DNA of 39,886 nt from an uncultured Mollicutes bacterium (GTDB lineage: Bacteria; Bacillota_I; Bacilli_A; Acholeplasmatales; Anaeroplasmataceae). The notes below the pieces were generated by a model, which was given only the letters and a program-made list of their open reading frames with translations, searched no databases and was not told the DNA's origin. The position numbers and the translations under genes were made by a program. Of the stretch, positions 8,001 to 32,925 are shown in pieces; the first letter of the stretch is position 1; each line of letters opens with the position of its first letter. The stretch spans positions 1 to 39,886 of the forward strand of contig CAMELE010000018.1 in the NCBI GenBank assembly GCA_945923475.1. The letters are read 5' to 3'.

Positions 8001-9438
8001 GATAAGTTTTTGTACCAGCTGTGTTTAGCTCTGAGTCAACTTTACATAAGTCCTTAACAAATTCTTGCTTCTTTGCAGTAACATCTGCACTCTCTGTAAA
8101 GAAGAATGTATAGTCATTATTTGCAACTAAATAGTTACTCTTAAGACCACTAATTGAAGCTACTGATAATGTATTTGAATATGATGATGGAGAACCTACC
8201 GTTCCTGAATCTGGATTAGATACCTTGTTAACATTTCCATTAGGTCCGCCAAAGCCTGATGAATAATCATTACTTGCAGCCGCAATTAATGAAATACCAG
8301 CCTCTTCAATTGCATCATATACTGCATTGATACTATCATTATCAGCTTCTCTACTAAATCCACATGATGTACCAAGTGACATATTAATACAATCAACACC
8401 AAGAACTACTGAATCCTCAAGCGCCGCAACAATATCTTCTGCTTCAGCACCACTAGTTGTATCACCGAATACCTTCATTAATGCTAGCTGAGTATTGGTT
8501 GCAACACCTGTAATAACATCATCTTTTCCACCAATAATACCAGCAACATGGGTTCCATGCTCTGAATCATATGGGTTAACATCAAAATCCTTATCTGCAT
8601 AATCATACATGAAAGGGATTTTTTTACTATAATATAAATCCTCTGGTTTTAAATTTTTTGTTGATTCATATGCATTTAATTCTGTAATAACTTTAGAAAT
8701 TGAATCAACATTAATAACCTCTTTTTCAGGTTGATTCTTAAACACAGAATGTGAGCATTGGAATCCAGAGTCAAGAACCGCAACTACAGTTCCTTCTCCA
8801 TTGTAGCTTACACTAGATGAATTAAAAATACCTGTTGGATATACGTCTACAATATTTTGAACAGCACCACTACTAGATGAATCCTCTGTCGATGCTTGAG
8901 GTAAATTATATGTATCAGATAAAATAACCTTATCAACTAATGGATTATTTTCGATTTCGCTGATTTTACCATAAGTTGTAGTCGTAGAAAAGCCATTTAA
9001 AACTGTACGATATCTATGCTTAATTCCACTGATTAAGGAATTAGCTTGAAGCTCATTAATAGCCTTTGTTTGCTCGTTAATAATGCTTGAAAGCTTAATT
9101 GCTGCAGCATTACTTTCAACAAACTCCGAAACAGTTGCATATGCGCTTGCATAATAATCATTATAGTAATCAATTAAAGGATTAGTACTTAAAGATACAA
9201 TTATATTTACCTCATCACTATCCTTATATCCATTATTCTTAAGAAGATACTCTGCTTTAATTTGAGATGTACGAGTTTCTTGTGAAATAGATTGATCAGA
9301 CTTTAAAACTCTTAAGGTAGTAGAATCATCTAATGATGAATCATCTCCCTTTTGTGAATTTGAAGAATTACAGCTAGTGATAGCTACTGCTGATAATGCA
9401 CATAATGAAGCTATTAATGTTCGCTTTAAATATTTCAT
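2005..9438 (-). CDS. Giant cell-surface subtilisin (S8) with PA, Ig-like and BspA-type LRR domains
   Basis: A 2477-residue exported serine protease. It has a lipoprotein signal with lipobox ITS-C23, then an I9-like propeptide (about 40-175). The S8 catalytic domain carries D223 (AVLDSG), H294 (HGTHVAG) and S621 (GTSMAAP), with a PA insert at about 470-570 as in streptococcal C5a peptidase and lactococcal PrtP. Fn3-like beta domains follow, then a Big_2-type Ig domain near 1330. A long run of LRR_5 (BspA-type) repeats covers about 1370-2220, then a helical region, and a C-terminal hydrophobic segment ending KSKF with no LPXTG. The catalytic triad is complete. It follows the Opp transporter genes by 16 bases, behind a GAAAGGAG site, suggesting it supplies peptides for import. 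The LRR tract could bind host or food proteins. Confidence 0.93.
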   Translation of the reverse strand: MKYLKRTLIASLCALSAVAITSCNSSNSQKGDDSSLDDSTTLRVLKSDQSISQETRTSQIKAEYLLKNNGYKDSDEVNIIVSLSTNPLIDYYNDYYASAYATVSEFVESNAAAIKLSSIINEQTKAINELQANSLISGIKHRYRTVLNGFSTTTTYGKISEIENNPLVDKVILSDTYNLPQASTEDSSSSGAVQNIVDVYPTGIFNSSSVSYNGEGTVVAVLDSGFQCSHSVFKNQPEKEVINVDSISKVITELNAYESTKNLKPEDLYYSKKIPFMYDYADKDFDVNPYDSEHGTHVAGIIGGKDDVITGVATNTQLALMKVFGDTTSGAEAEDIVAALEDSVVLGVDCINMSLGTSCGFSREADNDSINAVYDAIEEAGISLIAAASNDYSSGFGGPNGNVNKVSNPDSGTVGSPSSYSNTLSVASISGLKSNYLVANNDYTFFFTESADVTAKKQEFVKDLCKVDSELNTAGTKTYQYVTIPGVGIDASYNGIDVKGKIALVKRGSNTFDEKVKNAKKNGAVAVIIYNNVEGDISMSITDKDHIPAISVTKEVGLKLAEKKSGTITVSTTNLAGPFISDFSSWGPTPSLELKPEITAHGGEIKSAIPGDSYDSMSGTSMAAPNMCGVVVLIRQYLKEKYPNATSKEIMNMAYSLLMSTATIALNEEGNAYTPRKQGAGLANLKNAINTNGYISVDGIDKPKIELGDDAKRTGKYELAFTINNISEKAITYTLDLTALTETVSSSDEEYVAEKSYVLDNSFKATANGSAISNNEVTVPANGKVNVVIAYELSDKDRSYIENGFPYGIYVEGFVKAIPTDSNETSLNAPFLAFYGDWTEAPLFDKTFFEVETEAHDGSIDDEDKIAADYYATRPYGSYMNNYIIPLGTYIYDIDESQYSAIPGSLDHIAISEDHGTIDGLSVVYAGCLRAAKTMTYTITDTVTGEVIYEMIDYNCSKAFGYNGSARPYYQYLRQKSSSLGLVNNRTYRFNMVGTIDYGDGGISTNVRNSFGFDFVMDNEAPIIKEAKYQKVYDKTLKKYRYYVTLTVYDNHYVQSITPISFNNDKTYTILTSDPIPVYSKKGADTDIKIEITDFLETRDHDAIVNNALSFNIDDYALNTNVFVVELPGTSESIWYTTDGNSTSAKMSIITGYVNEPLDLTQYLCSASNEDKSYFSYLNWTSSNESVAKVHNGVVMPYAKGRAVISCYDHRRGYYAQITVNVKDTKESTAYAIKKAYSGTENIKELTFDYFDTLYAHPKSYGVSDIAKTGAIVYTSSVPSPNMYPGESIKLHYNVSPWYVEDKYSFVWKSSNSLVASVDENGVVTALKEGSTNITLQAEGTSIIARIKITVLNEFIVENRVLVSYKGLGGDVVIPDDKGILYIGPYAFSLYESDDTDVNPDDDGDANKVPYGNTKITSVVVPEGVEQIQKYAFYNCPSLKSVTLPSTIRFIKEYAFAYDTKKYNSSALESINLEDVEVVGHNAFEGCDNLKEINLNNCYTIGAYGFAGCKSLTEVDLTKVRNAGEKTFYNCTNLTKIVTNESTKISAGMFENSGITSITLNATAIPDRAFYNCKNLTSITINGKLISIGTNAISKNENLKEIIINGSVEYINEKACENNANLEKIVLPNSSVNVSSYAFANNPKLSTVEFQEKTFFSTLEQSMFANSGVSTFVVNENNPNYTSENGMLVANNKILLVAPKAELGDYTLPSNITAIGDYAFSGVSGITSVTINNKVDLGIGVFASCPNLASVSLNEKQDISDKLFYNCSNLSTVNNLDKITLIGKYSFYNTGIKYLTISSNANVLYHSFEQSSVLSVVIGDNATIDEGVFKKCNSLVEVTVPTSFKEIKAETFYECINLLSFNFENIEKIGESSFYKTKIAEANMPNVLFIGESAFRNCNKLGVISIPKVKEIAAYAFSCDEAATASALQAPIFTSVELPSSLTKLGVGAFMNCNKLTSVINNGTCDIAENAFRQCLELESVTLSNAIKVVGNYAFADCANLNSINLTNVEIVGKGAFGGTAKLTNVDLSNALSVSDFGFAASGLISSINAPKLTNIGSYAFQMTKISGFTAPKLESIGEGAFYKSTELTSFTISKDLKFIGDHAFLDTTSLESINYNNNGVLSETGIVNNYVRLDNGILYTYVTEKKLNLHSVPAAKSFETLEVLEGTYSIGFYAGNANKNVKAIVLPDSLRVIGDYAFFGYTGLNSVEFKSINAPTFECSYDSSLTLTEKDPGYEQLQNYFNVYGNILYYTNFVNLIGKNKPLNLIVPNNSKLNGYNSIIFEVYFGGIDNAQKSKYTAMDSYSVSYLEAMERIMNISVVALSDEALINTASTAYANMSTDLTKFGYTQDEINAMSDKLTAISKDLRDLKFKTASADVKKLQAKLDSLNPVFTIDRLSELNNLAKELSKLTISERAILDLTNYNALISSYNDYCSSLKPTIDAVNEVANNSFNYASSLVISLLSLITVAGVALKSKF
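2780..5340 (-). repeat. Tract of LRR_5 (BspA-type) repeats within the protease
   Basis: About 850 residues of repeats, each about 22-24 residues, of the form I-x-x-x-A-F-x-x-C-x-x-L-x-x-V-x-L. AFxxC appears as AFYNCPSL, AFEGCDNL, GFAGCKSL and many degenerate variants. Several units have lost the Cys or the AF pair. The repeats diverge at DNA level, so the array is old. Boundaries are approximate. Confidence 0.85.
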
Positions 9439-18325: not shown

Positions 18326-18345
18326 AGCTAAATGAAACTTTAGCT
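18326..18345 (-). terminator. Weak terminator-like hairpin after the redox operon
   Basis: AGCTAAA (18326-18332) pairs with TTTAGCT (18339-18345) around a six-base loop, overlapping the stop codon of the upstream lipoprotein gene. The following minus-strand sequence is only partly T-rich. It is the sole candidate between the two operons, so some read-through into the opp operon is possible. Confidence 0.35.
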
Positions 18346-19094
18346 TAATTAGTTTTTGTGACACTGAAAGGGAATGCTTCTTCATTTGTAACATTATTAA
18401 CAGCGAAATCTAATGTAGTTGAATCTTCAGTAACTGTAAATTCATATCTAAAATTATATTCGTTGCCATCGTCTTTTCCCTTTACACTAAATTTTCCATC
18501 TTCAATTAAGGCAAAATCTGTATCTACAGTTCCACTTACAGCCGCAGCATAAGACTCAATTACATATGTTCCAGGAGTTAGACCTGTTAATTTATAGTAT
18601 TGAGGAGTACTTTTTGCACAAGCAGTTGTCTCATAGTAGCCTGTACCAATTACATAAGGATTTGTAGCTGTACCTTCACCTGTTTTTGTACCTAGCTCAT
18701 AAACATGGACAGTTACTTCCTTAGTTGTATCGCTTGATTTAACCTCAAAGGCATTGTATGTATAGCCTGAAGGAACACCATTTAAGTGAACAGAGAACGT
18801 ACTACCAGGTTCAACAGGCATAGTTGCAACACCATTTTCATCTACTGCCTTTGGTAATTTACAGCCACTGGCATTACACCATTGAACCTTTACCCCGGTA
18901 ACTGGTTGATTGTTAGATGCATATACAACAGTTACTTTATAAACATTTTCATCTGCAGTTGTAGCTATAAGATTAGTTGTCGTTGTAGATACTGCTGAAG
19001 TTGGATTTTGAGAAGTAACATTTTCTCCTGTACATGCTACAAGAAGTGCAGCAAGTCCTATACTACTAATTGTTAATAATTTTGACTTTTTCAT
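18345..19094 (-). CDS. Cysteine-containing lipoprotein with CnaB/carboxypeptidase-regulatory-like domain
   Basis: A 249-residue lipoprotein with lipobox LLVA-C21, then a Ser/Thr linker (about 25-47). A beta domain follows (about 50-120) with VYKVTVVYAS, a C73-x4-C78 pair, DENGVATMPV and PSGYTYNAF. The second domain (about 140-249) contains YYKLTGLTPGTYVIESYAA and one more Cys (C159). Both domains have counterparts in the 563-residue lipoprotein at 24893-26584, and the first also in the TlpA-like lipoprotein. It lies 18 bases after the ferredoxin-thioredoxin gene behind a GAGAGG site. Its extra cysteines make it a candidate client of that redox chain (inference). No enzyme motif is seen. Confidence 0.78.
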   Translation of the reverse strand: MKKSKLLTISSIGLAALLVACTGENVTSQNPTSAVSTTTTNLIATTADENVYKVTVVYASNNQPVTGVKVQWCNASGCKLPKAVDENGVATMPVEPGSTFSVHLNGVPSGYTYNAFEVKSSDTTKEVTVHVYELGTKTGEGTATNPYVIGTGYYETTACAKSTPQYYKLTGLTPGTYVIESYAAAVSGTVDTDFALIEDGKFSVKGKDDGNEYNFRYEFTVTEDSTTLDFAVNNVTNEEAFPFSVTKTN

Positions 19095-19112
19095 ATTTTT
19101 CCTCTCATTCTA

Positions 19113-21158
19113 TTATTTATTTAATGCTTCTACTATAACTGCATCTAGCTCAGCTTCAGTCATAGGTCCTTGAACATTTTTAATTACATAACCATTTTCA
19201 TCAACGATGATTGACATTGGGAATGAGCCTCTGCCACCTAGTGAGTAATAATAGCTATCATCCACATCATCATATACAAATCGAGCATTTAAGTTTTTAA
19301 ATTTATCATCAGTATGTAGTAAATTTGCAAGCTTACCATTTTTTATATAATCCTGATACATACTACCTGCATGAACTAAAACTAGCTCTACATCATTAGA
19401 ATATTTAGTTACAACCTTGTTAAATTCTGGAATCTCAGTGACACATGGACCACATTCTGTATACCAGAAATTAAGAATTGTAATTTTACCATGATTATTT
19501 TCTAGGTTAAATGTTCCAATATCATCAAGTGTTGCTGGATTAAATTCTGTTAAATCCTTAGTAAAGCAATAATTTCCTTCCTTATTACCGATAATAGTAC
19601 CCGCTAGAGATAGCTCTATTTTTTCAATTTCAGTCTCACTAAAGAAGCTATTTGAAGAATAATTCAATACATTATCGCTCGAAATCCATACATAGTAAGG
19701 ATATGTTTCTTCTTTATTAAATAAGCTTAATTTATTACTATTCTTATCATCATAGCCTAAAAGAATATTTGAAATATTAGCTTCCTTTAGCTTCACTTCA
19801 TTTTCATCCTTTTTAGCATAGCTTGATACAGCTATCATATCATATTTTGCGCCAGCTAATCTTTCATTTATTTTTGCTAATTCAGCGAATGAATTAGTAT
19901 CAAATTCATCATAAAAATATATAATTGTTAAATGATTATCAACCTTTATATTAAAGCTTTCTTTATCATTAAGACCTTCATATAATTCAAGTTTGAAATC
20001 TCCAACCTTTTCATTTACGTTGATATGCTTAGACCAGTTAATATTTGTAAAAATAACAACTAAAACTAGGAAGATAAGCATTGCTGAACCAACAATAATT
20101 TGATATAAGCTTCTCTTATTTAGTTTTTTCTTAGGCTTTATCGTTTTTTGCTCCTTATTATTAGTAGCTTCATTTGTTTCAATTAAAGCTATTTGTGACT
20201 CTTGTTCACCAACAGCTTCTTCACTTAAAGCCTCAGCATTTTCATTTGAAGCTTCTGTTACAGATTCATTTGATCCTTTAGCCTCTTCTTTTAGCTTATC
20301 TCCAACAAGCTTCCACTTGATTGCGCATTGCTTACAAACATCAATACATTCACCACACTGAATACATTCATGATCCCCGACCTGCTTAACATCCATTTTA
20401 CATTTAGATACGCAGGCTCCACAATTATTACATTTAGATTTATCTACCTTAATGCCAATAATTGATAATTTGTTAAATAATCCATAAATTGCACCAAGTG
20501 GGCAGAAGAATCTACAGAAAAATCTATATATGAATATAGAGCCTACAATAAATCCAATCAATAAACAGAACTTCCAGGTAAATAGAGGACCTAACATATC
20601 AAAGAATGAAACATTAGCACTGTTCCCCAACAAGAATACTGCACCCTCAAAAGTTCCTATAGGACAAACATATTTACAAAATGCAGGAACAGTTTTGTTA
20701 GAAGCTAAACCAAACATCAAAGGAACACATATAACAAGCACTACTAATAATACATATTTAAAATATGATAATATTCTTGTAACACGATTCTTACGAAGCT
20801 TTGGTGTCTTAATTTTATATAATAATTCTTGAAGTAATCCTCCAGGACATAACCAACCACAAATCCAACGTCCAAATAATATACAATATAATAAAATTAT
20901 ACCAAGAACATATGTTGGAGCCTTTGTTTTACTGGCAGCTAGCTCATTTTGTAAAGAGCCAAGTGGACAAGCACCAACAGCACCAGGACACGAATAGCAA
21001 TTCATACCAGGTACACATAAATGCTTTAAAGGACCAGTATAAATATTGCCAGATATAAATCCACTTAATTGAGCATTATATAAAAGCGCTGCATATAGCT
21101 GAATTAATTTACGCTTATTAGGAAATATTCTATTAAAAAAATTCTTAATCTTACTCAT
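19113..21158 (-). CDS. Membrane polyferredoxin (NapH/CcoG-like) fused to extracellular thioredoxin domains
   Basis: A 681-residue fusion. Residues 1-235 form a multi-helix membrane part with Cys-Pro motifs typical of NapH-like proteins (C54, C57, C64-P; C100, C104-P; C161, C165-P; C215, C219-P). A cytosolic 2[4Fe-4S] ferredoxin follows (C243/246/249/253 and C265/268/271/275). Then come an acidic linker (290-340) and a membrane helix (353-370). Outside is a first thioredoxin-like fold without Cys (about 380-510). Last is a TlpA/ResA-like domain with C569-G-P-C572. The layout implies electron transfer from cytosolic ferredoxin across the membrane to an outer dithiol. It starts four bases after the CXXC-tail protein. 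Confidence 0.9.
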   Translation of the reverse strand: MSKIKNFFNRIFPNKRKLIQLYAALLYNAQLSGFISGNIYTGPLKHLCVPGMNCYSCPGAVGACPLGSLQNELAASKTKAPTYVLGIILLYCILFGRWICGWLCPGGLLQELLYKIKTPKLRKNRVTRILSYFKYVLLVVLVICVPLMFGLASNKTVPAFCKYVCPIGTFEGAVFLLGNSANVSFFDMLGPLFTWKFCLLIGFIVGSIFIYRFFCRFFCPLGAIYGLFNKLSIIGIKVDKSKCNNCGACVSKCKMDVKQVGDHECIQCGECIDVCKQCAIKWKLVGDKLKEEAKGSNESVTEASNENAEALSEEAVGEQESQIALIETNEATNNKEQKTIKPKKKLNKRSLYQIIVGSAMLIFLVLVVIFTNINWSKHINVNEKVGDFKLELYEGLNDKESFNIKVDNHLTIIYFYDEFDTNSFAELAKINERLAGAKYDMIAVSSYAKKDENEVKLKEANISNILLGYDDKNSNKLSLFNKEETYPYYVWISSDNVLNYSSNSFFSETEIEKIELSLAGTIIGNKEGNYCFTKDLTEFNPATLDDIGTFNLENNHGKITILNFWYTECGPCVTEIPEFNKVVTKYSNDVELVLVHAGSMYQDYIKNGKLANLLHTDDKFKNLNARFVYDDVDDSYYYSLGGRGSFPMSIIVDENGYVIKNVQGPMTEAELDAVIVEALNK

Positions 21159-21162
21159 AATT

Positions 21163-21942
21163 CTAACCTAACCCTATACATTCAGAACAAATATTTGCAG
21201 CTTTAAAAAATACACTAGTTGCACCACCGTTAACAGCACCAATAATAATCATTGCAATAGCAAGTGCTAAAACTCCACATTTTACACCAATTAAAATATT
21301 ACGCTTTTTAATTGTTTCTTTTTCAAAGCTAACTGAAACTTTTTTATATTTAGCTAAAAGCTTTTTAGCATGAATAGTAGCTAGATTTGCACTATATGAT
21401 TCAAATATAATCATTGCAATTGAAATTACAAATCCAACAATAACAAAAGGCAGAATATGACTAACTAATTTAACAATAACCTCGTTAGGTTCTGTGTAAT
21501 CATAATTCTTCTTATTAAAAACATATAAAAATACAAATAATGCACATACTGCTAAAGAAATAAACGTTATGAGCCAACCGATTTTACGCTTTTTATCTTC
21601 TTTTTTTATTACAAGATAAAGAGGATCTTCAGCTACCTCTTCCTTAGGAAGCATTCTTAATAAATTATTTAATATAAAAACTTTTGAATGTTTGGCTGAT
21701 TTATTATCGTTCAATTTATGCTTAAATGACAAAATACCTCCAGCACAAACAACTAAAACCCATAAAATCATTGAAAATAGGATTTGAAGTAAATACTTGC
21801 CTACAATATCCTTAGTATACGTTCCATTATTACCAAAATAAATTCTTAAAGCTTGTATAATAAACAATACAGCCGTAAGCATAGTAACTATACTTATTGC
21901 TATCCAAACTATATTTCTAGTAAGCTTTTCCTTCTTTTCCAT
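21163..21942 (-). CDS. Five-TM protein ending in a CXXC tail, CD1871A-like C-terminus
   Basis: A 259-residue membrane protein with helices at about 11-32, 50-72, 122-142, 161-180 and 216-237. By the positive-inside rule the C-terminus is outside. The last segment (GAVNGGATSVFFKAANI then C252-S-E-C255-IGLG) matches the small CD1871A family of CXXC proteins, which are normally only about 40-60 residues long. Here that unit is fused to four extra helices. It lies between the TlpA-like lipoprotein and the polyferredoxin-thioredoxin fusion, with a TAGGAGG site. The likely role is a membrane-tethered dithiol carrier between them. The family link rests on the tail motif and the neighbours. Confidence 0.7.
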   Translation of the reverse strand: MEKKEKLTRNIVWIAISIVTMLTAVLFIIQALRIYFGNNGTYTKDIVGKYLLQILFSMILWVLVVCAGGILSFKHKLNDNKSAKHSKVFILNNLLRMLPKEEVAEDPLYLVIKKEDKKRKIGWLITFISLAVCALFVFLYVFNKKNYDYTEPNEVIVKLVSHILPFVIVGFVISIAMIIFESYSANLATIHAKKLLAKYKKVSVSFEKETIKKRNILIGVKCGVLALAIAMIIIGAVNGGATSVFFKAANICSECIGLG

Positions 21943-21966
21943 GTGTACCTCCTATAAAGCACAAAG

Positions 21967-21990
21967 GCACAAGGCTTTTTGACCTTGCGC
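21967..21990 (-). other. Intercistronic hairpin in the redox operon
   Basis: In the minus-strand RNA, GCGCAAGG (21983-21990) pairs with CCTTGTGC (21967-21974) through eight pairs including one G-U. The next bases are only moderately U-rich and run directly into the ribosome site of the next gene. It may be a partial terminator or a processing structure that keeps the lipoprotein mRNA more abundant than the downstream membrane genes. Confidence 0.4.
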
Positions 21991-22001
21991 TTTTGTATTT
22001 A

Positions 22002-24746
22002 TTATGCACCTAAATGCACAACATAGTAGCATAGCTTAAGCCATGAACCTTCTATACCAGCAAATGTATACTTATCCATTAGCTTTTGAAGTAAATCACA
22101 CAATGTAGCATCAACCTTAACCATACCATAGTAAATAGACTGTGTATTTGTTTCCATCAATGCTTGATATTGTCTAGCTAAAGCTGTTAAATCTTCTCCA
22201 TCTACTGCTTGACCATGTTCATCCTTAGTAAAGTTGAACGCACCTGCCTCAATCAAATATTCTAATGAACCAGCTCCAGCAAAAACACCTGTAATATACT
22301 TAAAATCTGCATAAATATACTCATTTGCCAAGATATTACCGTTTTCATCTGTTACATGATAATATCCATCAGTTCCTAAAGCAACACCAACATTAGCAAT
22401 AGAAATAATGTCTGACATATTTTCATCTGATGATGTAAATGTTGGTTCTGAGCATGATGCTAAATAGTCACATGATTCCCCAAAATATTCAATTGAATAC
22501 TCAAGTACACCAATTTCCTCAACGTTAAAGAATGCTGGTGAAATATAATATGTCTTACCTGCTTCATAATATACATATTCATAGAATGGATCACCAGAGG
22601 TTTGTGATGTATGAATAGTATAATAGTAGTCTCTTGGAGTATTTCTTGTTTCATACTTTGTATTTCCATCCTTAGAAAAGAATAGCACAGCTTGAGCATC
22701 ACCTAATGACTTAATCAAATATACGCCTGTCTTTTCTGGAACGAATTTTACTGTATATCCTCTTGGTACGAATACATACTTATACTCAATAGAGTTTACA
22801 CCTTCGTGTGCTTCAAAAGCATTGAATGAAGCAAGTCCCTTAATTGGATCTCCAATAGGCTCATCACCATTCTTTAAATATTCATTAATATAAACGCACA
22901 TCTCAAGAACTTCTTTTTCAGGTGTAGTATTTTTACCAATTGCCTTAACAACATTAAGTAATGCGTTATATAATTCCTGAGTAATAGGTGTTAATCCTTC
23001 AGTAGGAATATTTAAGTAGATATTAAATACTGAATTTACAGCATATTGAGCATATTTTGTTAATATAGCATCAGTTTCATCATCAAAATAATCAGTTTCA
23101 CCATATACATAATTGATAATAGAAACAGAACTAAAGCGTGTATTAGAATCTAATAATGCTGCAAATAATAATGGACCATTTACACTACCAACATGATAGT
23201 ATCCATCCTCTTCATTATAAACTGGCGTAATGTAGTTTTCATATAATTGATTAAACGAATTAAACTCTCCAGTTGCGGCTTGTCTGATTACATACATACT
23301 ATATGGAACATCCTCAACCTCAACAAAACGAATATTACTTATATATATAGTATCATCATATTGTGATAATGCTTGATCCTTACGGAACAATAAATTGATA
23401 TATATTCTTTCAGACTCATCTGAAGTAGCATATAAATAGTACGTATCACTTGTTGCACCTGAAATTGTTCCGATTTGAGTTGAACCAATAAATACACCTA
23501 AAACATCATTAGTTTCACATGATGAATGATAATCAAATGCAAGTACCTTATTAGCAGGTACAGTTATGTCAATTGATAACAATGCATAAGAATAATCATA
23601 ACCTGCATTCGAAGGTTGAATTGACTTTCCATCCTCAGATACAATCCAAGGCCAGTTAGCGTTATATTCTTCAGATAATCCATCTACGAATTCAGCAGTA
23701 ACACCACTGGCTAGTGAAGCATTTGCTAAAGCATCAGAGCCAGGGAACTTTGGACCAGTTTCAGAATCTGGCTTTTGCCAATCGATGTTTCCTTCTTCGT
23801 TTGTTGGAATATATTTTGGTTCATAGTCATCCGCAAGATATTCATCAAATAAGCCTGTCCAAGACTCAACAGATGTGATTGCACCACTATGAACATATCC
23901 AACAAGTCCATAACGGTCAATCATGATAGTTGTAGGTGTTGAACTAATTTGAAAAGCTGATATAAGCTCTGTATCCCCATATGTGTTAAAGAAATTTAAC
24001 CCTAACTCTATACCATATTCTTCAAGTACACTAGCACTATCAGATGTATTAATACCAATTAATGAAACACCCTTATCCTTATATGAGTTATAGGCATCAA
24101 TTAAGTAAGGGAATTCCTTTATACACCATGAACATGTTGAATACCAGAAATTTAAGACAACAAGATCATTTTCCTCAAGCAATGACGACAATGTGACTGA
24201 AACACCATCTTTTGCAGTACCATTTTTAAAGTCCATTCCATTGAAGGTCTTATCGTACATTACATCTCCTTGAACATATGATGTACCCTCTGGCATAGTA
24301 TCCATAATCAAGCTAGCATCATATTTTACAACTGTTTCCTCTGCAGTTGAATCATATGGTAATGCATAAGAATCCTCTTGGATAGTATAGCCTGGTAAAT
24401 CCTCAGGATATATAGTATATGTTTGTTCTTTTAATTCGAAAGTTGCGTAACCTTTATTATCTGTATATTGAGACTCAGTTACACCCTTTCCTTTCATTAC
24501 TATTTCAGCATTTGCAATTGGCTTTCCATTGAAGCAAACTGCCTTTACTTTGTAAGTCTTTGTATCAGCATCTACAGTTGTAGTTGGGATTGTTGTTGTA
24601 GACGTACCTGGTACTACTGTTGTTGTTGAATTAGAATCAGTAGTAGATGTTGTTGTAGTGGTATTTTCACCTTTACATCCTACAAGTGCAAGTCCAACAA
24701 GACCAATGCAAGATAACGATACTAAAGATTTAACTATCTTTTTCAC
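22002..24746 (-). CDS. TlpA/ResA-like thioredoxin lipoprotein with large C-terminal extension
   Basis: A 914-residue lipoprotein. I choose the GTG at 24746 (KKIVKSLVS follows), because AAGGAGG sits just ahead of it and the signal peptide begins there; the longer reading adds 16 non-signal residues. The lipobox is ALVG-C24. A Thr-rich linker (about 28-60) and a CnaB-like domain (YKVKAVCFNGKPI, KGYATFEL, LPGYTI) come next. The TlpA-like domain has C205-S-W-C208 and the cis-Pro loop SSTPTTIMIDRYG. The remaining 600 residues include a beta sandwich and two DGYYHV modules. Six further Cys lie outside the active site. It heads the redox operon under an extended -10 promoter and likely acts on external disulfides. 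Confidence 0.88.
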   Translation of the reverse strand: MKKIVKSLVSLSCIGLVGLALVGCKGENTTTTTSTTDSNSTTTVVPGTSTTTIPTTTVDADTKTYKVKAVCFNGKPIANAEIVMKGKGVTESQYTDNKGYATFELKEQTYTIYPEDLPGYTIQEDSYALPYDSTAEETVVKYDASLIMDTMPEGTSYVQGDVMYDKTFNGMDFKNGTAKDGVSVTLSSLLEENDLVVLNFWYSTCSWCIKEFPYLIDAYNSYKDKGVSLIGINTSDSASVLEEYGIELGLNFFNTYGDTELISAFQISSTPTTIMIDRYGLVGYVHSGAITSVESWTGLFDEYLADDYEPKYIPTNEEGNIDWQKPDSETGPKFPGSDALANASLASGVTAEFVDGLSEEYNANWPWIVSEDGKSIQPSNAGYDYSYALLSIDITVPANKVLAFDYHSSCETNDVLGVFIGSTQIGTISGATSDTYYLYATSDESERIYINLLFRKDQALSQYDDTIYISNIRFVEVEDVPYSMYVIRQAATGEFNSFNQLYENYITPVYNEEDGYYHVGSVNGPLLFAALLDSNTRFSSVSIINYVYGETDYFDDETDAILTKYAQYAVNSVFNIYLNIPTEGLTPITQELYNALLNVVKAIGKNTTPEKEVLEMCVYINEYLKNGDEPIGDPIKGLASFNAFEAHEGVNSIEYKYVFVPRGYTVKFVPEKTGVYLIKSLGDAQAVLFFSKDGNTKYETRNTPRDYYYTIHTSQTSGDPFYEYVYYEAGKTYYISPAFFNVEEIGVLEYSIEYFGESCDYLASCSEPTFTSSDENMSDIISIANVGVALGTDGYYHVTDENGNILANEYIYADFKYITGVFAGAGSLEYLIEAGAFNFTKDEHGQAVDGEDLTALARQYQALMETNTQSIYYGMVKVDATLCDLLQKLMDKYTFAGIEGSWLKLCYYVVHLGA

Positions 24747-24806: not shown

Positions 24807-24834
24807 ATTATAACATATTCTATATGAATTTCAA
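24807..24834 (-). promoter_or_regulatory. Promoter of the thiol-redox operon
   Basis: On the minus strand, -35 TTGAAA (24829-24834), a 16-base spacer and a perfect -10 TATAAT (24807-24812) preceded by TGT, an extended -10 (TGn). The leader is about 54 bases. This separates the redox operon from the MoxR/VWA operon, which ends only 59 bases upstream of the -35. No convincing terminator lies between, so read-through from the MoxR operon is likely. Confidence 0.75.
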
Positions 24835-24892: not shown

Positions 24893-26584
24893 TTAATTTA
24901 TATAAAAACCACATGCAAAAAGCCATTGATTTTCTTCGGCCGCAAAAACGCCACCTTGTTCACACCAACCATTACCATCAAAGAAATAGCATTGTGAATT
25001 ACTAAAGTACTGTAAGAATTCTTTAAGCTCCTTAGTAACATAACAAACTCCATCACTATTACATACGCTAGCATATTCCGCTTCAATGAAGCGTTTATAA
25101 TTGTATATCTTATGATCAATACTAACGTTTTGTAATGCACCATTACCAGGATCTTCAATATGGATTAATGCTGATTCTACAAAGACAGTGGCACTGGTAA
25201 TTTTTGCACACACAATTCGATCCTCTCCATTATAATTAAAGTGATAATATCCATCCTCTTCGTTATAATAAATAACCTCTTGACCATTTTGGTTAACATC
25301 TAAAACTAAATTAGATCCTTTTCTCCAGTCATTAAAATTACCAAAATTTTGATAAGCATTTCCAGTTATTTCTTTTGTTGTTTCTTTTAAGATATAATCA
25401 CCTGTAGGATCTTGTACATACCTTCCATCAACCAAATTATATCTAGCTCTTAAATAATTAAAACTATTTGTATCATTAAATGATGGATCAAGCATATTAT
25501 TCCAATAATATGGATAATGAAGTGTAGTACCTGCATTATCAACGCATGAATAAGTATTAGGGTAATATAGATCTGCATCTGATGTTATTTTTACATAATT
25601 AAGCTCAGGAGTACCATCAGCACTATAAATTATATTACCATTTGTATCACGTTTATAATATAATTCATTAGCAAATACAGGATTACGAGTAGCTTGTTCT
25701 TCCTTATAAGTATCTACATATGTAATTTTAAATGTAATTGTAACTGGATAGCTTGAGCTGTCCTTTACATCTGCTTTAATACCAAATTTAGCAACATTAC
25801 CAATATAATGTTCATCTAAATCAATACGATATTTGAAATTCTTAGTATATCCACCCGATAATGAATAGCCTCCATCATCAATTTCCTTATCAAAAACCGT
25901 ATATGCTGCAGGACCTACTTTATACTTTCTTGCGATAGGATTAACCGAATTTTCATATACGTCAACCAGTGATTCTACAGTGTAAGAACCAGGACTTTTA
26001 ATCGAAAATTGATAATATTTTATATCTGTTACATTTTTCAATGTAGCTATATAGCAATAGCTTATATTTTTCTTCTCAGGATCACTTATTGTAATATTTT
26101 CAATTTCAATCGGATTGTAAATACTACTGCTATTCTTATCTGAAAGTTTAATAATTCTTAATAATTCAATACTTCCGATTGGATTATCATTGCTAACTAT
26201 TGTCCCATTTGGATCATATGTATATCCATTTGGAGTTTTTGACAAATGAACATTAAACTCACCGACTAATCCCGTAGCTTTGGCAACACCGTTTTCATCT
26301 AGCTTAACTCTTTTTTCAGTAGAACTATTTGTAAAAATAACCTCAATAGCATTTTCCTCACTATAATCAGGATCAAAATAAGGTTCTCCTCTTAATAATA
26401 AGGTTATAACAAATTCAACTTCCTCATCATTAACCGTTGTAGTTGGGCCTAATGTTGATGTAATAGCTGATGAGGTTGGAGCAGAAACAACAGGATTTTT
26501 TGTTGTATTTCCGCCCTCAATAGTTTTGCAGCCTACAAGAAGGCAAATAAAACTTATTAAAGCAATTGTTACTACTTTTTTCAT
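24893..26584 (-). CDS. Cysteine-rich lipoprotein, last gene of the MoxR/VWA operon
   Basis: A 563-residue lipoprotein with lipobox LLVG-C19 and a Ser/Thr linker. An N-terminal CnaB-like domain (about 45-125) contains KLDENGVAKATGL and TPNGYTYDPNG. A second domain (about 150-290) contains YYQFSIKSPGSYTVES. A C-terminal region has a DGYYH module and six Cys in the last 110 residues, plus two earlier ones. The first two domains match the 249-residue lipoprotein; the DGYYH module matches the TlpA-like lipoprotein. Its start overlaps the dual-VWA gene stop by four bases (ATGA). It probably forms the secreted client or ligand of the VWA machine; no enzyme motif is recognised. Confidence 0.8.
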   Translation of the reverse strand: MKKVVTIALISFICLLVGCKTIEGGNTTKNPVVSAPTSSAITSTLGPTTTVNDEEVEFVITLLLRGEPYFDPDYSEENAIEVIFTNSSTEKRVKLDENGVAKATGLVGEFNVHLSKTPNGYTYDPNGTIVSNDNPIGSIELLRIIKLSDKNSSSIYNPIEIENITISDPEKKNISYCYIATLKNVTDIKYYQFSIKSPGSYTVESLVDVYENSVNPIARKYKVGPAAYTVFDKEIDDGGYSLSGGYTKNFKYRIDLDEHYIGNVAKFGIKADVKDSSSYPVTITFKITYVDTYKEEQATRNPVFANELYYKRDTNGNIIYSADGTPELNYVKITSDADLYYPNTYSCVDNAGTTLHYPYYWNNMLDPSFNDTNSFNYLRARYNLVDGRYVQDPTGDYILKETTKEITGNAYQNFGNFNDWRKGSNLVLDVNQNGQEVIYYNEEDGYYHFNYNGEDRIVCAKITSATVFVESALIHIEDPGNGALQNVSIDHKIYNYKRFIEAEYASVCNSDGVCYVTKELKEFLQYFSNSQCYFFDGNGWCEQGGVFAAEENQWLFACGFYIN

Positions 26585-29208
26585 TTGTCCTTCACCCTCT
26601 TCTTTTTAGTAAATATGTCTTTTATATCCTGCCAACGTAGCTTTCTAATTGCTATATCGCATACAAAAACAACGCAGCATAGAATCATTAATAATGGAGC
26701 AAATTCGTACTTATAATAGGTTACTGGAAGTCCATCATTACTAATTTGAAGTTTTCCTTCCTCAACTACCTGTCCATCACTTGTAATAAAGCGATACAAA
26801 TTAGATGCGTCAAATAATTCAAACGAATCATATTCTGGCATATAAGAAATAACAAATGAAGCTTGAGCCTTTGTTTCAATACTACCAACCTTATAGCTTA
26901 ATTCCAAATTATATGTTCCAGCATATTCACAATTAAATGATGTTAAATAATCCTTAGAATTAAAGCTCATCACAATTTCCTGAACTCCTATATTACTCTT
27001 ACTTGGATATGTAACCTTAAGCGTTGCAACGGCTAATGAATTAATTTCAGGAGGTGTAACAACAACCTCAACTGATGACCCATTCAATGATGATTCAAAC
27101 AAGAATGGAGTGTAGCCATACAAATTAGGCTTATTAATTGTAGGAATTCTCTTAACTAATTCCTCATCAACATTGCTAAAGCTTGTGGTTATACAAGAAA
27201 CCTTGCCCTCACCATAGCTCCAATTTGAATATAAAGGATATTTTTTAGATTTTTCCTCAACCTCAACAATCGTTTGAGCTGTTGTTTTAGCAACACTTAC
27301 ATAAAAATCATTAACTGAACTAAGCTTATTTAAATCTGCAACAAGCTCATCTTTTGGCTTTTTAATATATAATTCAAATCCATCCTTAGATGTTTTATAG
27401 CTTTCAGTTACCTCATCCGCAACTGCAGTTAGTACTAAATTAGAGGCTTGCTCCTCAGTTGATACACTATAATAATTACCATTACCATAGCTAGCAATAT
27501 TCTTAAGATTAATCGAAACATCATCATCCGTTTTAGCAGTAAAAATTGTACTGACGTGAATATTTGCATTCCCAAGCTTTTTAGCTGCATTATCAATGTT
27601 TGTTTGATCAAGTCCATATGATAATCCATCAGAAATAAGCATTACTTGCTTACTGATATAATTTTTTGTAACTAAGCTTTCGTATGCATAATTGAGTGCA
27701 GCTCCTAGGGATGTAGCTTGCTTAGAATCAAGCTTACTAATTACTTCCTTAGCCTTTAGCTTATTTGAAGGAGTTGCCTTATCAACATTAAATGGTGTAA
27801 TAACATCTCCATAAAAGGCAATAACGTATAAAGAATCTGTTTCCTCAAGCAAATCAATAATTGAATACGCTGCTTGCTTAGCCATTTTTAGATGTGATAT
27901 CGAATCCATACTCTTAGATATATCGAGAATAATTGTATAAAGACGGCTCTTATCAGAAGAATTATCATACTTAAGTGGTAACATCTGGCTTAAAATAGAT
28001 AATGTACTGTTTTCTCCATCCTTGTTATTTTGAATATAAGTATTACCAATTGTCACAAGGCTCTTTCCGTATAAAGAAATTGCTTTTTCTAAATTAGTCA
28101 CAAATAATTCACTATATGATAAATCACTTATATTAATATTTGATAAAACGAATTCATCATATTGGCATAAATCCTCTAAATTATAAGGGACATTAGGATT
28201 ATTAATATATGAAGTTACATTAACATTATCGTTTTTGCTAACATAATTGTCATAATCAGCTTGATTGGTACCAATAAACAATACATTTAATGCCTCTGTA
28301 ATCGTTTGATTAAAGAAATATGAATTATTGATATCATTCAAATCTCCATCTTTAATATTAACAAGCTTAGCATGATAATAATGGGTTCCACTAACTGATG
28401 TGTCCATATTTAATATCATAGAATTACTACCCTTAGATAATAAAATATCAGTAGTTTTAGTAACTAATACCTCTTCTTCGTTTTCGTTTATCTCATACAA
28501 TTCTAAATCACAGCTAGTTTGCTTGTTAGAATCAATAGTAAATGTAACATCTGAATTACTATTAATTACTGTTGTATCTGATAATGTAGTATTAGATATT
28601 TGAACCTCGCCTGTATCCTCAGGTAAATTATTATCTAAATATATAGCATCTATATGAATATCCCTTGACTCATAATCACTAATAAGACCTGAAATATGAT
28701 CATCATTAGTTTCGTTACCATCTGAAATAATTACAATTCTTTTTATAACATTGTCAGAAAAAGCTCCTGAGGCATACTCTAATGCAGGCTTAATGCTAGT
28801 AGCACTATCATCAACCTTAGCTTCTTTAACACTTTTTAAAGCTTGACCGGGCTCAACCAAGACTTCAAAATCCTTGCCATAGCAAATAATACCAATTTCC
28901 GAATTCTTAGGCAAATTCTTTTTCAAGCTATTAATCTGCTCATCAATCTTATCTAAATTATTATGTGATGAATATGAAACATCGGCTAAAACATAAACAG
29001 TTGTTTTAGTTTGAACTGTTCTTAAAGTCATTTGAGCAAGTGCTAGTGTTGCCATAATTGCAATAAGAATATGACATACTAGTGATGTAATATTATGAAA
29101 ATTAAAGCCACTTTTCTTAATAGATAAGAAAAAAGGTATACAAACAAGTGCAATAAATACTAATCCAACTAGTAATAAATACGGATTAGTAAAGCTGATG
29201 TTGCTCAT
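26581..29208 (-). CDS. Membrane protein with two VWA domains and a GATase-like domain
   Basis: An 875-residue protein with two N-terminal helices (about 10-28, 42-62). VWA domain 1 has MIDAS DVSYS (D76) and IISDGNETND. A middle domain of GATase1-like type follows (ALNVLFIGTNQADY through SLVTIGNTY). VWA domain 2 has MIDAS DISKS (D429) and LISDGLSYG. Beta domains and a C-terminal helix (about 836-856) with a basic cytoplasmic tail follow. Both metal sites look intact. This architecture is known from MoxR-DUF58 loci in Gram-positive bacteria. The start lies 23 bases inside the preceding BatA-like gene. The external VWA domains probably bind protein partners through Mg2+. Confidence 0.87.
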   Translation of the reverse strand: MSNISFTNPYLLLVGLVFIALVCIPFFLSIKKSGFNFHNITSLVCHILIAIMATLALAQMTLRTVQTKTTVYVLADVSYSSHNNLDKIDEQINSLKKNLPKNSEIGIICYGKDFEVLVEPGQALKSVKEAKVDDSATSIKPALEYASGAFSDNVIKRIVIISDGNETNDDHISGLISDYESRDIHIDAIYLDNNLPEDTGEVQISNTTLSDTTVINSNSDVTFTIDSNKQTSCDLELYEINENEEEVLVTKTTDILLSKGSNSMILNMDTSVSGTHYYHAKLVNIKDGDLNDINNSYFFNQTITEALNVLFIGTNQADYDNYVSKNDNVNVTSYINNPNVPYNLEDLCQYDEFVLSNINISDLSYSELFVTNLEKAISLYGKSLVTIGNTYIQNNKDGENSTLSILSQMLPLKYDNSSDKSRLYTIILDISKSMDSISHLKMAKQAAYSIIDLLEETDSLYVIAFYGDVITPFNVDKATPSNKLKAKEVISKLDSKQATSLGAALNYAYESLVTKNYISKQVMLISDGLSYGLDQTNIDNAAKKLGNANIHVSTIFTAKTDDDVSINLKNIASYGNGNYYSVSTEEQASNLVLTAVADEVTESYKTSKDGFELYIKKPKDELVADLNKLSSVNDFYVSVAKTTAQTIVEVEEKSKKYPLYSNWSYGEGKVSCITTSFSNVDEELVKRIPTINKPNLYGYTPFLFESSLNGSSVEVVVTPPEINSLAVATLKVTYPSKSNIGVQEIVMSFNSKDYLTSFNCEYAGTYNLELSYKVGSIETKAQASFVISYMPEYDSFELFDASNLYRFITSDGQVVEEGKLQISNDGLPVTYYKYEFAPLLMILCCVVFVCDIAIRKLRWQDIKDIFTKKKRVKDK

Positions 29209-31054
29209 AACAATACACCATCCAATCTGCGATAAACAATAAACCTAAAAGAACAAATAATACTATTAATGGATCATATGTTCCTTCGATTTTTTCATCT
29301 AAAGCCTCGCCTACTAAAGATATATACAATTCTGATTCCTCTTCGTTTTCCTTTTGAGGGAAACCAGAATAAAAATTAATAGTCATAATTTCATTTGACT
29401 GTAATGTAATTGTTAGCTTATATGTTCCAACAGATGTTAAAGAATAATTAACAACACTTGAGGAAGTATCTAAATATGTAGATTTTCCATTTGGTGTTTC
29501 TAATCTGATTGACTTTGCTTGAGCTAAAACATTAATGCTAATTTCATCTCCACATGTATAGTTTGATGTTTCAATTACATTTGGGAAAGAATAGTCAAGT
29601 AAATTATTAAATAAAACTAAGAAATTGTAGCTTAATGGTAAATTTGAATTATGTAAGTCAAATCCAAATACAATCTCACGATTACCATTTACTGTATTAC
29701 CACTAAACACAACAGGATTTCCTTGACATGAATATAGAGTTGTAAATCTCTTGTTAATTCCATATGAAACATAGGATTTAACATACAATGGTAAATCAAT
29801 TAATCCTTCAACAAGCTTCTTTTCCTCACCATATATGTTTTCTAATTCAAGTAATGCGCCATCCTTTACTTCAACCTCATCTTTAACAGTGAACAAGGTT
29901 CCTGATAGACTTTCCTTTTGATTAAAAAACCAAATAGTTCCATCAGATGGCAATACACTAGGTGTACATGAATCAAAGATATATAATCCATAGCCTGATT
30001 GAACATTGAATTTATCTGGTTCTATATGTTCAATATTATTTACGCCATACGCTTCTAAGACAGCAAGTAGATAAAAAGGATTCTTACTTACAACAAGTGC
30101 TTTATAATTGTGTTCAGCTACAAGATTATACACAGTAACACTATTATCTAATGCAAGACAATCTTCATTAGCAATTTTTACTTCAAAGTTTGAGAATCGT
30201 GAACGATAAACTGTAAAAGAATATGGAGTTTTAACTCCTTTAAGGCATAAAACATTTTTCGTTTCAACAAGCTTACCATCCATATACAATTCAAGGCTTA
30301 AATCTTTATCGTTTTCATATGAAATAACATTACCTATAACATCAACTGACGCAGCAGTAATTACTTCTCCATCAGTGCCATATGTAGCAGGTGTTATATT
30401 GTAGGTAGCGTCATAAAGAGCATAGTTTTCTTCTTTATTGGAAACATCAACTAGTTCAATATTATTTGTGCTATAATTCTTATCTGTATATAAATATGTT
30501 TTTATTGATGGATTACTATTGAAATAATTTTGAGCTACTGATAAGGAATCTGCACAATTATTAACAATATATGAGCTACTTACTTTTTCTAATAAATCAA
30601 GAGCCTTTTTCTTATCTGTATAATCCTCAAAAATTACCTGAGTATCATTTCCAACAAGGATTAAATTATACACACTTCCATCTTTAGAGCTATTTATTTG
30701 TTCTTTAATCTTCATCTTAGCCTTATCAAACCTAGTTTGTCCAGCATTTTCCTTAAGCATAGAACCAGATCCATCTAAAATGAAGCAAAATTCATTAGCT
30801 GAATTAGGAATATGAATGATTGGTCTAGCAATTAAAAGAGAAATAACTAATACAGCAAGACATTGAAGTATTAAATTAATAAGTCCCTTTAGTTTTGAAA
30901 TAGGCTTACGATTTTTTAAAAATCTTTCACTTAAATTCCATAAATATGTACTGGCAATTGTTTGCTCAGTATATTTATTTTTTATAATATAAATAATAAT
31001 TAAAATTGGAATACCAATTAATCCAAGTAAACCAAGAGGATAAACAAAACTCAT
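29186..31054 (-). CDS. BatA-like membrane protein with VWA domain
   Basis: A 622-residue protein with the N-terminal BatA signature (FVYPLGLLGLIGIPILIIIY), a second helix (about 58-78) and a VWA domain with MIDAS DGSGS (D94). The long external beta-rich region resembles the DUF4350/GATase-like part of such proteins. A C-terminal helix (about 595-612) ends in YCYEQHQLY. BatA/BatB proteins belong to the Bacteroides aerotolerance operon and work with MoxR and DUF58 partners. The start overlaps the DUF58 stop (ATGA), and the 3' end overlaps the next VWA gene, so the three are made together. Confidence 0.87.
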   Translation of the reverse strand: MSFVYPLGLLGLIGIPILIIIYIIKNKYTEQTIASTYLWNLSERFLKNRKPISKLKGLINLILQCLAVLVISLLIARPIIHIPNSANEFCFILDGSGSMLKENAGQTRFDKAKMKIKEQINSSKDGSVYNLILVGNDTQVIFEDYTDKKKALDLLEKVSSSYIVNNCADSLSVAQNYFNSNPSIKTYLYTDKNYSTNNIELVDVSNKEENYALYDATYNITPATYGTDGEVITAASVDVIGNVISYENDKDLSLELYMDGKLVETKNVLCLKGVKTPYSFTVYRSRFSNFEVKIANEDCLALDNSVTVYNLVAEHNYKALVVSKNPFYLLAVLEAYGVNNIEHIEPDKFNVQSGYGLYIFDSCTPSVLPSDGTIWFFNQKESLSGTLFTVKDEVEVKDGALLELENIYGEEKKLVEGLIDLPLYVKSYVSYGINKRFTTLYSCQGNPVVFSGNTVNGNREIVFGFDLHNSNLPLSYNFLVLFNNLLDYSFPNVIETSNYTCGDEISINVLAQAKSIRLETPNGKSTYLDTSSSVVNYSLTSVGTYKLTITLQSNEIMTINFYSGFPQKENEEESELYISLVGEALDEKIEGTYDPLIVLFVLLGLLFIADWMVYCYEQHQLY

Positions 31055-31935
31055 TTCAATACCCCCTCTTCTGTAAGCATCTTAATAAATGTATCCTTAA
31101 TATTCTTATCATCCTGAACAAGAACATAATTTGCCCCAAGAGAAGAGCAATAATTTTTTAGCTCGCTTTTTACATAATTAACTGCCTCACGATAGGCCTT
31201 AATTACATCCTTTGTAACATTCTTTCGATAATCTGCAGAGCTTGATTCCGAATCAAAATAATGAATCTTTCCACGAATCATTGGATTTATCTCTTCTTTA
31301 GATAATAATTGAACACATAATACATCTCTTTTTTTCTCAATCATACGAGTAATACCTGTTTTATAATCATTATCAGTTAAAAAATCAGATACGATAATAG
31401 ATAAACCATCTCCATATCCAACGTCTTCTGGCATAATAGCTTCAGAAAAGCTAAAATCTCCACCAAAATCAATTTCATTAATTTTACCAATGCTAGTATA
31501 AAAGCTATCCTTGTTTGCTAAATCTGTTAATATCTCGTAGCATTTATTATCCTTAATAATATATATAGATGCTTTATCCATCAATACAATTGATAGATAA
31601 GCAAATGCAGCAGCTATTTGTAAAGCTAAAACAGCTTTATTTGATTTATTAAAATCCATTGATAATGAAGCATCAAGATAGATTTTAGTTTTTAATCTTC
31701 TTTCATCTAAATACTGCTTTAGATACAAGTTTTCTGTTCTAGCGTATAAATTCCAATTAATTTTAGTTATATCGTCACCTGGCAAATATTCTCTATGATC
31801 AGCAAATTCACAGGATGATCCAAACTTTTTACTTTGATGATTTCCTCCGAATAATCCGGCAACATTATTTTTTAAAATTAATTCTATGGTTTCAAGTTGC
31901 TGCAAAAAATCTTCATTTATTGCATACTTACCCAT
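31051..31935 (-). CDS. DUF58 domain protein
   Basis: A 294-residue soluble protein with the DUF58 core: REYLPGDD (48-55), INWNLYART and a VWA-like strand with DASLS (D88). SIIVSDFLTD lies in the second half. The long N-terminal membrane region of some DUF58 proteins is absent, so this is the short cytosolic form. Such proteins are co-encoded with MoxR ATPases and VWA membrane proteins, and are thought to link the ATPase to its clients. It starts three bases after the moxR-like stop, with only a weak AAGGCG site, suggesting translational coupling. Confidence 0.92.
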   Translation of the reverse strand: MGKYAINEDFLQQLETIELILKNNVAGLFGGNHQSKKFGSSCEFADHREYLPGDDITKINWNLYARTENLYLKQYLDERRLKTKIYLDASLSMDFNKSNKAVLALQIAAAFAYLSIVLMDKASIYIIKDNKCYEILTDLANKDSFYTSIGKINEIDFGGDFSFSEAIMPEDVGYGDGLSIIVSDFLTDNDYKTGITRMIEKKRDVLCVQLLSKEEINPMIRGKIHYFDSESSSADYRKNVTKDVIKAYREAVNYVKSELKNYCSSLGANYVLVQDDKNIKDTFIKMLTEEGVLK

Positions 31936-31938
31936 ATA

Positions 31939-32925
31939 TTACTTTATCGCCTTTTTTGTTTCCTTAAGTAATAAACCAATTACATCATCAACTGATAGAT
32001 GCTCATTGATTGCAGTATAATTAATCTTTACACGATGTCTTAAAACTGGATATGCAAGGGCATTGATATCTTCAATTGATACATTAAAGTTTCCATTAAT
32101 TAATGATCTTACCTTTGCAGCAGTAATTAAAGCTTGTCCAGCACGTGGTGAAGCACCATTCTTTAAATACTTCTTTGCAACTTCACTATTACCAAGCTCA
32201 GGATGTGTATTAGAAACTAAAGTCATAGCGTATGTTAATACATCATCAATAACTGGAACATTCTTTGAAAGCTCACGCATTTGAAGAATTAAATCGCCAT
32301 CTACTACTGCTGAAGCAGTTTCCTCTAATGTAATTTGAGTTATATTAACAATATCCTTTAATTCTTGAATTGATGGATATTCCATAATTAGTTTAAACAT
32401 AAAACGGTCCATTTGTGCCTCAGGAAGAGGATAAGTACCATCTTGCTCAATTGGGTTTTGAGTTGCAAGGACAAAGAATGGCTCAGCCATTTTATATGTT
32501 TCATTTGCAACAGTAACCTTATGCTCTTGCATTACTTCTAGCATGGCAGCTTGAGTCTTTGGAGTTGCACGGTTAATTTCATCGGCTAGTACTAGATTGG
32601 CAAAAATAGGTCCCTTTTGGAAAACCATTTTCATGTTTCCATTTACATCCTTCTCTATTACATTTGTACCAGTTACATCAGATGGCATTAAATCTGGCGT
32701 AAATTGAATTCTTGAAAACGGAAGATTCATAACCTTACCTAAGGTACGTACTAAACGAGTTTTTCCAACACCTGGAATACCTTCAAGTAATACGTTACCT
32801 CCCGAAATAATTGCGATTAAAACATTGTCAACTATATCATTTTGACCAACAACGTCTTTTCTAATCTCATTTCTAATTGCACTTACTGTTTCGCTAAATT
32901 GTTTAACTTTTTCAATGTTTTCCAT
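31939..32925 (-). CDS. MoxR-family AAA+ ATPase
   Basis: A 328-residue AAA+ ATPase: Walker A GIPGVGKT (K55), Walker B LVLADE (D115, E116), the MoxR hallmark INRATPKTQAAMLEVMQE, and the sensor region FVLATQNPIEQDGTYPLPEAQMDRF. The AAA lid follows, with SPRAGQAL. All catalytic motifs are intact. MoxR proteins act as chaperone-like ATPases that load cofactors or assemble VWA-containing partners. It is preceded by AGGAG and lies 13 bases after the DUF4175-like gene. It is the probable motor of the six-gene operon. Confidence 0.95.
   Translation of the reverse strand: MENIEKVKQFSETVSAIRNEIRKDVVGQNDIVDNVLIAIISGGNVLLEGIPGVGKTRLVRTLGKVMNLPFSRIQFTPDLMPSDVTGTNVIEKDVNGNMKMVFQKGPIFANLVLADEINRATPKTQAAMLEVMQEHKVTVANETYKMAEPFFVLATQNPIEQDGTYPLPEAQMDRFMFKLIMEYPSIQELKDIVNITQITLEETASAVVDGDLILQMRELSKNVPVIDDVLTYAMTLVSNTHPELGNSEVAKKYLKNGASPRAGQALITAAKVRSLINGNFNVSIEDINALAYPVLRHRVKINYTAINEHLSVDDVIGLLLKETKKAIK

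Follow-up and report, generated by a model that had tools for sequence, protein, structure and literature searches.

A polyferredoxin, a CXXC-tail protein and exported thioredoxins as a candidate trans-membrane relay for extracytoplasmic thiols

We analysed a 39,886-nucleotide stretch of DNA (the window) from an uncultured Mollicutes bacterium (contig CAMELE010000018.1 of GenBank assembly GCA_945923475.1), whose minus strand carries, in this order, genes for a TlpA lipoprotein, a protein with five transmembrane (TM) helices, a polyferredoxin with a fused thioredoxin, and a lipoprotein at 18345. With a probability of roughly 0.6, we propose that this cassette relays electrons across the membrane and so maintains extracytoplasmic thiols in the reduced state. 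An initial annotation had read the locus as a ferredoxin-driven path to surface dithiols and an alternative to the route through CcdA; that interpretation is partly supported by the present analysis, the comparative support at the level of sequence being strong. The four genes are:

22002..24746, minus strand: TlpA/ResA-like thioredoxin lipoprotein with a GTG start, the lipobox LALVGC and a CSWC motif (C205/C208); the C-terminal region is long and its function unassigned
21163..21942, minus strand: five-TM protein, whose last TM helix and C-terminal tail form a CD1871A-family CXXC domain (C252/C255)
19113..21158, minus strand: NapH-like polyferredoxin with a fused thioredoxin, matching the Pfam families Fer4_5 and Redoxin
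18345..19094, minus strand: lipoprotein with a prealbumin/SpaA-like domain and the cysteine pair C73/C78 (QWCNASGC)

The topologies considered here are predicted from sequence. In the polyferredoxin, two inner CX3CP motifs (C100/C104 and C215/C219) are accompanied by two cytosolic 4Fe-4S motifs and a fifth TM helix. Given three well-defined helices and the export of the thioredoxin, six further cysteines (C48, C54, C57 and C64, and the pair C161 and C165) are predicted to lie at the outer face. The predicted outer loops contain 5 lysine plus arginine residues (K+R) per 100 residues and the predicted inner parts 15–24. Charge statistics also place the fused thioredoxin outside, as the initial annotation had it, and the active-site positions given there (C569/C572) were exact.

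All ten of these membrane-part cysteines (C48, C54, C57, C64, C100, C104, C161, C165, C215 and C219) were kept in 71/71 polyferredoxin-thioredoxins, as were the eight ferredoxin cysteines and C569/C572, while C92, C144, C198, C278 and C531 were not invariant in this set. The outer cysteines were invariant also in 26/26. Among 14 distant relatives C54, C57, C64 and C165 were retained in every case, with C48 lost in 13 and C161 in 7; these four thus persist while C92, C144, C198 and C278 drift. Alignment with Escherichia coli NapH showed that the inner CX3CP and ferredoxin cysteines are shared, and that the outer cysteines are all missing from the E. coli protein. Four cysteines at the outer and four at the inner membrane face would suffice for one cluster on either side. 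The fused thioredoxin is a member of the Redoxin family (PF08534; 44.7 bits, cut-off 26.6), and a fold search with its AlphaFold2 model returned resemblance to ResA, StoA and Etrx2. A second, degenerate thioredoxin-like domain lacking the CXXC motif occupies residues about 375–520, between the fifth TM helix and the active thioredoxin.

In the five-TM protein the last helix and the tail, with its C-terminal CXXC motif, belong to the CD1871A family (NF040920; 35.3 bits, cut-off 32), whose name gives no function; compared with that family, the window's tail domain is fused to four additional TM helices. Across 52 five-TM homologues sharing 18–67% identity with the window protein, the only invariant residues were K247, A248, C252, E254, C255, G257 and G259. 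K+R was higher in the predicted inside parts than outside in 52/52 of them, which puts the tail outside. The outward CXXC tail of the initial annotation, with C252 and C255 numbered exactly, is consistent with this pattern. Helices 1–4 (residues 1–210) vary strongly, unlike the tail, and have neither a sequence nor a fold match; for the five-TM protein as a whole, the fold search gave no significant match and a sequence search against solved structures likewise gave none.

The longest TlpA open reading frame (ORF) encodes 930 amino acids (aa) with the CSWC motif at 221/224. A GTG codon at 24746 is preceded by AAGGAGG and lies downstream of a TTGAAA-16-TATAAT site, and it is likely to be the start; the cysteines are therefore numbered C205/C208, so that the lipoprotein and numbering proposed originally hold with this start. 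TlpA also belongs to the Redoxin family, with a CXXC motif (51.6 bits against the same cut-off). Neither thioredoxin reached the threshold for ResA in the strict sense (PRK03147, ≥170 bits), the scores being 65.8 and 43.2 bits. In addition, the window's TlpA lipoprotein includes a related prealbumin/SpaA-like domain without the cysteine pair.

The version of this domain that has the cysteine pair is present in about 40 related loci. In 14 of these it is fused to TlpA, and in L112 and L120 it forms the C-terminus of the polyferredoxin-thioredoxin itself. Because the domain is placed after the thioredoxin, this arrangement suggests that the lipoprotein at 18345–19094 (C73/C78) may act as a terminal dithiol carrier or as a main substrate. 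The cysteine-pair domain was also noted for L084 and L070, and no dedicated family model was found for it.

The genes of the cassette travel together. Within a set of 60 genomes, comprising the window's own genome and 59 relatives, the CXXC tail and the polyferredoxin occurred in the same 7 genomes and were always adjacent. A second sample consisted of 299 clostridial genomes, drawn from the phylum to which the Oscillospiraceae genome with locus L052 belongs. Here CD1871A was found in 41 genomes and the polyferredoxin in 44, all 41 falling within the 44; the two genes shared a contig in 41/41 cases and were ≤250 bp apart in 36/41. The neighbour search in this sample read TGA through, since an in-frame TGA splits the thioredoxin ORFs, and it found a thioredoxin beside the polyferredoxin in 33/40 loci. 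The genes are co-conserved, and as far as computation reaches, neither of the findings that would have spoken against the initial annotation (a lack of co-conservation, or a CXXC tail or thioredoxin on the cytoplasmic side) was seen. One scan of GTDB species genomes yielded at least 591 relatives. Its best 80 matches, a set biased toward close homologues, included the CXXC-tail gene in 78/80 loci and the fused thioredoxin in 77/80. A minimal form (L035) pairs a 55-aa single-TM CD1871A protein with a polyferredoxin lacking the thioredoxin and a separate TlpA lipoprotein, and in L037 a separate TlpA gene adjoins the five-TM form. Genes that are separate in some lineages and fused in others are the usual sign of direct partners.

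In 14 clostridial loci (L155, L161, L163, L164, L165, L168, L169, L171, L172, L173, L175, L176, L177 and L179) the first active cysteine of the thioredoxin, mostly a lipoprotein, is replaced by an in-frame TGA (UxxC). SelB exceeded its cut-off in 13/14 genomes with UxxC, compared with 7/13 of the other genomes tested. The TGA codon at this position probably specifies selenocysteine, and that would point strongly to a role in thiol redox chemistry. Selenoproteins of the UxxC thioredoxin-like kind are known already (PMC13188914).

We used PF02683 (DsbD_TM) over its curated cut-off as the test for CcdA/DsbD. It had no match in the genome of the window or on any of the three window proteins, in line with the absence of CcdA/DsbD reported initially; it exceeded the cut-off in 0/60 genomes of the window's own set and in 0/50 genomes carrying the cassette. 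CcdA is too rare in the window's own phylum (31/392) for a replacement test. In the clostridial sample it was present in 15/44 genomes (34%) with the polyferredoxin versus 189/255 (74%) without (Fisher p = 7e-7, ancestry ignored).

For the electron donor, we recorded PFOR in 7/7 host genomes checked. A UbiA-family prenyltransferase over the cut-off was present in 0/7 of these hosts, with 14/14 controls positive and the clostridial hosts outside the check; the 7 UbiA-negative hosts very probably make no quinone. Together these two results make ferredoxin a plausible donor and quinol an unlikely one in these hosts.

We infer the donor, direction, outer cluster, carrier order and substrate of the relay as follows. 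Cytosolic ferredoxin, reduced by PFOR, would donate electrons to the polyferredoxin's two 4Fe-4S clusters on the cytosolic side, and the electrons would traverse the membrane by way of C100/C104/C215/C219 in the inner CX3CP motifs. At the outer face, a site made up of C54, C57, C64 and C165, with C48 and C161 added in close relatives, may then convert single electrons to dithiol chemistry. Here the CD1871A-type protein would have its outward CXXC tail reduced, and this tail would in turn serve the fused thioredoxin and the TlpA lipoprotein. These two would reduce surface disulfides, probably including the paired cysteines in the SpaA-like domain of the lipoprotein. We further suggest, tentatively and at somewhat less than even odds, that the cassette represents an undescribed class of trans-membrane thiol reductant. 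In such a class an outer-face Fe-S cluster (C54/C57/C64/C165) would transfer low-potential electrons of ferredoxin to dithiols on a membrane-tethered CXXC tail and so serve surface thioredoxins with a cysteine or selenocysteine active site, in anaerobes that mostly lack CcdA/DsbD and, as far as hosts were checked, give no indication of quinone.

Several observations weigh against the proposed relay. Model confidence for the membrane part of the polyferredoxin is only moderate, with blocks of predicted local distance difference test (pLDDT) scores of about 61–91. According to a value cited in PMC5928378, NosR was found to contain at most eight Fe per molecule, and this speaks against additional clusters at the CX3CP motifs of that protein. 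For the single-TM form of the tail the K+R balance was ambiguous (10 for, 8 against, 8 ties), and we did not use it as evidence. A nearby thioredoxin was not found in 7/40 clostridial loci. Finally, 15 clostridial genomes have both CcdA and the polyferredoxin, and the depletion figure ignores phylogeny; the cassette as an alternative to the CcdA route therefore stands in the statistical sense of depletion, and not as strict mutual exclusion.

Other ways of driving or using such a cassette have to be weighed against these data. The polyferredoxin might draw on the quinol pool, as in NapH-type transfer, and feed the external thioredoxins from there. Of the named families, NapH/MauN is indeed closest to the membrane part (78 bits), two CX3CP and two 4Fe-4S motifs are common to E. 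coli NapH and the polyferredoxin, and in some NapH-like systems quinol is the presumed donor (PMC8238504). The absence of UbiA from all 7 hosts, against uniformly positive controls, makes this quite unlikely. We hold it to be unlikely too that the cassette is a metal- or cofactor-handling or redox-sensing complex of the CcoG/NosR accessory type, in which the thioredoxins would keep one dedicated metal site reduced instead of acting on surface thiols at large. Accessory factors, CcoG and NosR for example, do belong to the Fer4_5 proteins, and a TlpA–ScoI mixed disulfide structure was among the fold matches, TlpA-family proteins being able to serve copper-site assembly. However, no copper or cytochrome gene was recognised in the cassette, CcoG (TIGR02745) was not among the matches of the window protein, and those partner lipoproteins that have a cysteine pair resemble dithiol carriers or substrates.

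The relay might also run in reverse, oxidising surface thiols to form disulfides and discharging the electrons into the cytosol. The CXXC tail and the thioredoxins are reversible in principle, and direction is not fixed by sequence alone. We nevertheless regard this as quite unlikely, because the thioredoxin domain resembles ResA, StoA and Etrx2, which act as reductants. This is the role of ResA and StoA, and Etrx2 likewise acts as a reductant (PMC3914529). Moreover, hosts that carry PFOR are unlikely to offer thiol electrons an acceptor in the cytosol, and the depletion of CcdA suggests a job shared with a reductive route. A reductive relay fed by ferredoxin remains our preferred reading.

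Compared with known systems, the cassette resembles the CcdA/DsbD route, exemplified at the surface of Streptococcus pneumoniae by CcdA1-Etrx1-MsrAB2 (PMC3914529), in that a membrane protein would pass electrons to exported TlpA/ResA-type thioredoxins. It differs in that PF02683 is absent and an Fe-S polyferredoxin with a CXXC-tail protein would replace the thiol-only carrier. The presumed donor is ferredoxin rather than NADPH-thioredoxin, and no MsrAB was recognised in the window. With NapH/MauN, NosR and RdhC/PceC the polyferredoxin shares a TM core with two CX3CP motifs, and with NapH also the two cytosolic 4Fe-4S motifs. In contrast to these proteins, the cassette has extra outer cysteines and a fused or partner thioredoxin, and the external FMN (flavin mononucleotide)-binding domain of RdhC/NosR is absent from the polyferredoxin's Pfam matches. 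The polyferredoxin reached 78.1 bits with NapH/MauN (TIGR02163), well short of the whole-protein cut-off of 213 bits, and CcoG/RdxA/FixG (TIGR02745, cut-off 316.7 bits) was not listed for the window protein and gave 25.7 bits for a homologue.

NapH-like proteins are established in outline as modular trans-membrane electron carriers (PMC8238504). A 2025 bioRxiv preprint (PMC12637426) describes an operon of gut Clostridia that encodes a 4Fe-4S protein, TlpA and a CxxC protein; it treats this operon as a gut biomarker for immune-related adverse events and makes only a general remark on ‘redox homeostasis’. Judged by this description rather than by sequence, it is very probably the same system. 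In contrast to the present analysis, the preprint text consulted does not describe topology, electron path, relation to CcdA, selenocysteine or the dithiol domain. Our literature search on CD1871A, or on Fer4_5 with thioredoxin, found nothing, the operon being described in the preprint alone; nor was a mechanism for the three-gene operon found, in a search with subscription journals mostly outside its reach.

The initial annotation had assigned the genes to one operon. The five-TM gene is 4 nucleotides (nt) from the polyferredoxin and the polyferredoxin 18 nt from the lipoprotein, and a single transcript is likely for these last three genes. TlpA is preceded by a promoter-like site of its own and the five-TM gene by a stable hairpin, so one transcript for all four genes is only possible. 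The total number of promoter-like sites of this kind in the region is not above chance, which makes the TlpA site weak evidence. The hairpin may be an attenuator. Rfam and tRNA scans across the window were empty. The flanking features are:

24807..24834, minus strand: promoter-like site for TlpA (TTGAAA-16-TATAAT, the −10 element preceded by TG; 11/12 matches)
21967..21990, minus strand: RNA hairpin inside the 59-nt gap between the TlpA and five-TM genes (fold z-score of the gap −4.0)
24893..26584, minus strand: lipoprotein with a related prealbumin-like domain lacking the cysteine pair (match to the domain hidden Markov model, 2e-13)
26581..32925, minus strand: Bat-type genes for a MoxR ATPase, a DUF58 protein, BatA and a VWA protein (assigned by Pfam), neighbours that we leave outside the relay

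The Bat-type genes lie directly upstream of the cassette, and the cassette is linked to genes of this type again in L025–L028 and L038, suggesting a shared role in stress or at the surface. Elsewhere in the window, a 2477-aa ORF (2005–9438) adjoins Opp-type transporter genes, and a 1352-aa protein with Big_3 Ig-like domains (34900–38958) is probably a surface protein.

How anaerobes without CcdA or DsbD keep their surface thiols reduced is an open question on which the cassette may bear. It is common, occurring in 44/299 sampled clostridial genomes besides the matches from the wider scan, and it offers concrete residues and partners for testing. The relay would explain an operon that a preprint has already connected with side effects of immunotherapy against cancer. 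Should the outer cluster exist, the cassette would embody a new way of turning single ferredoxin electrons into dithiols across a membrane.

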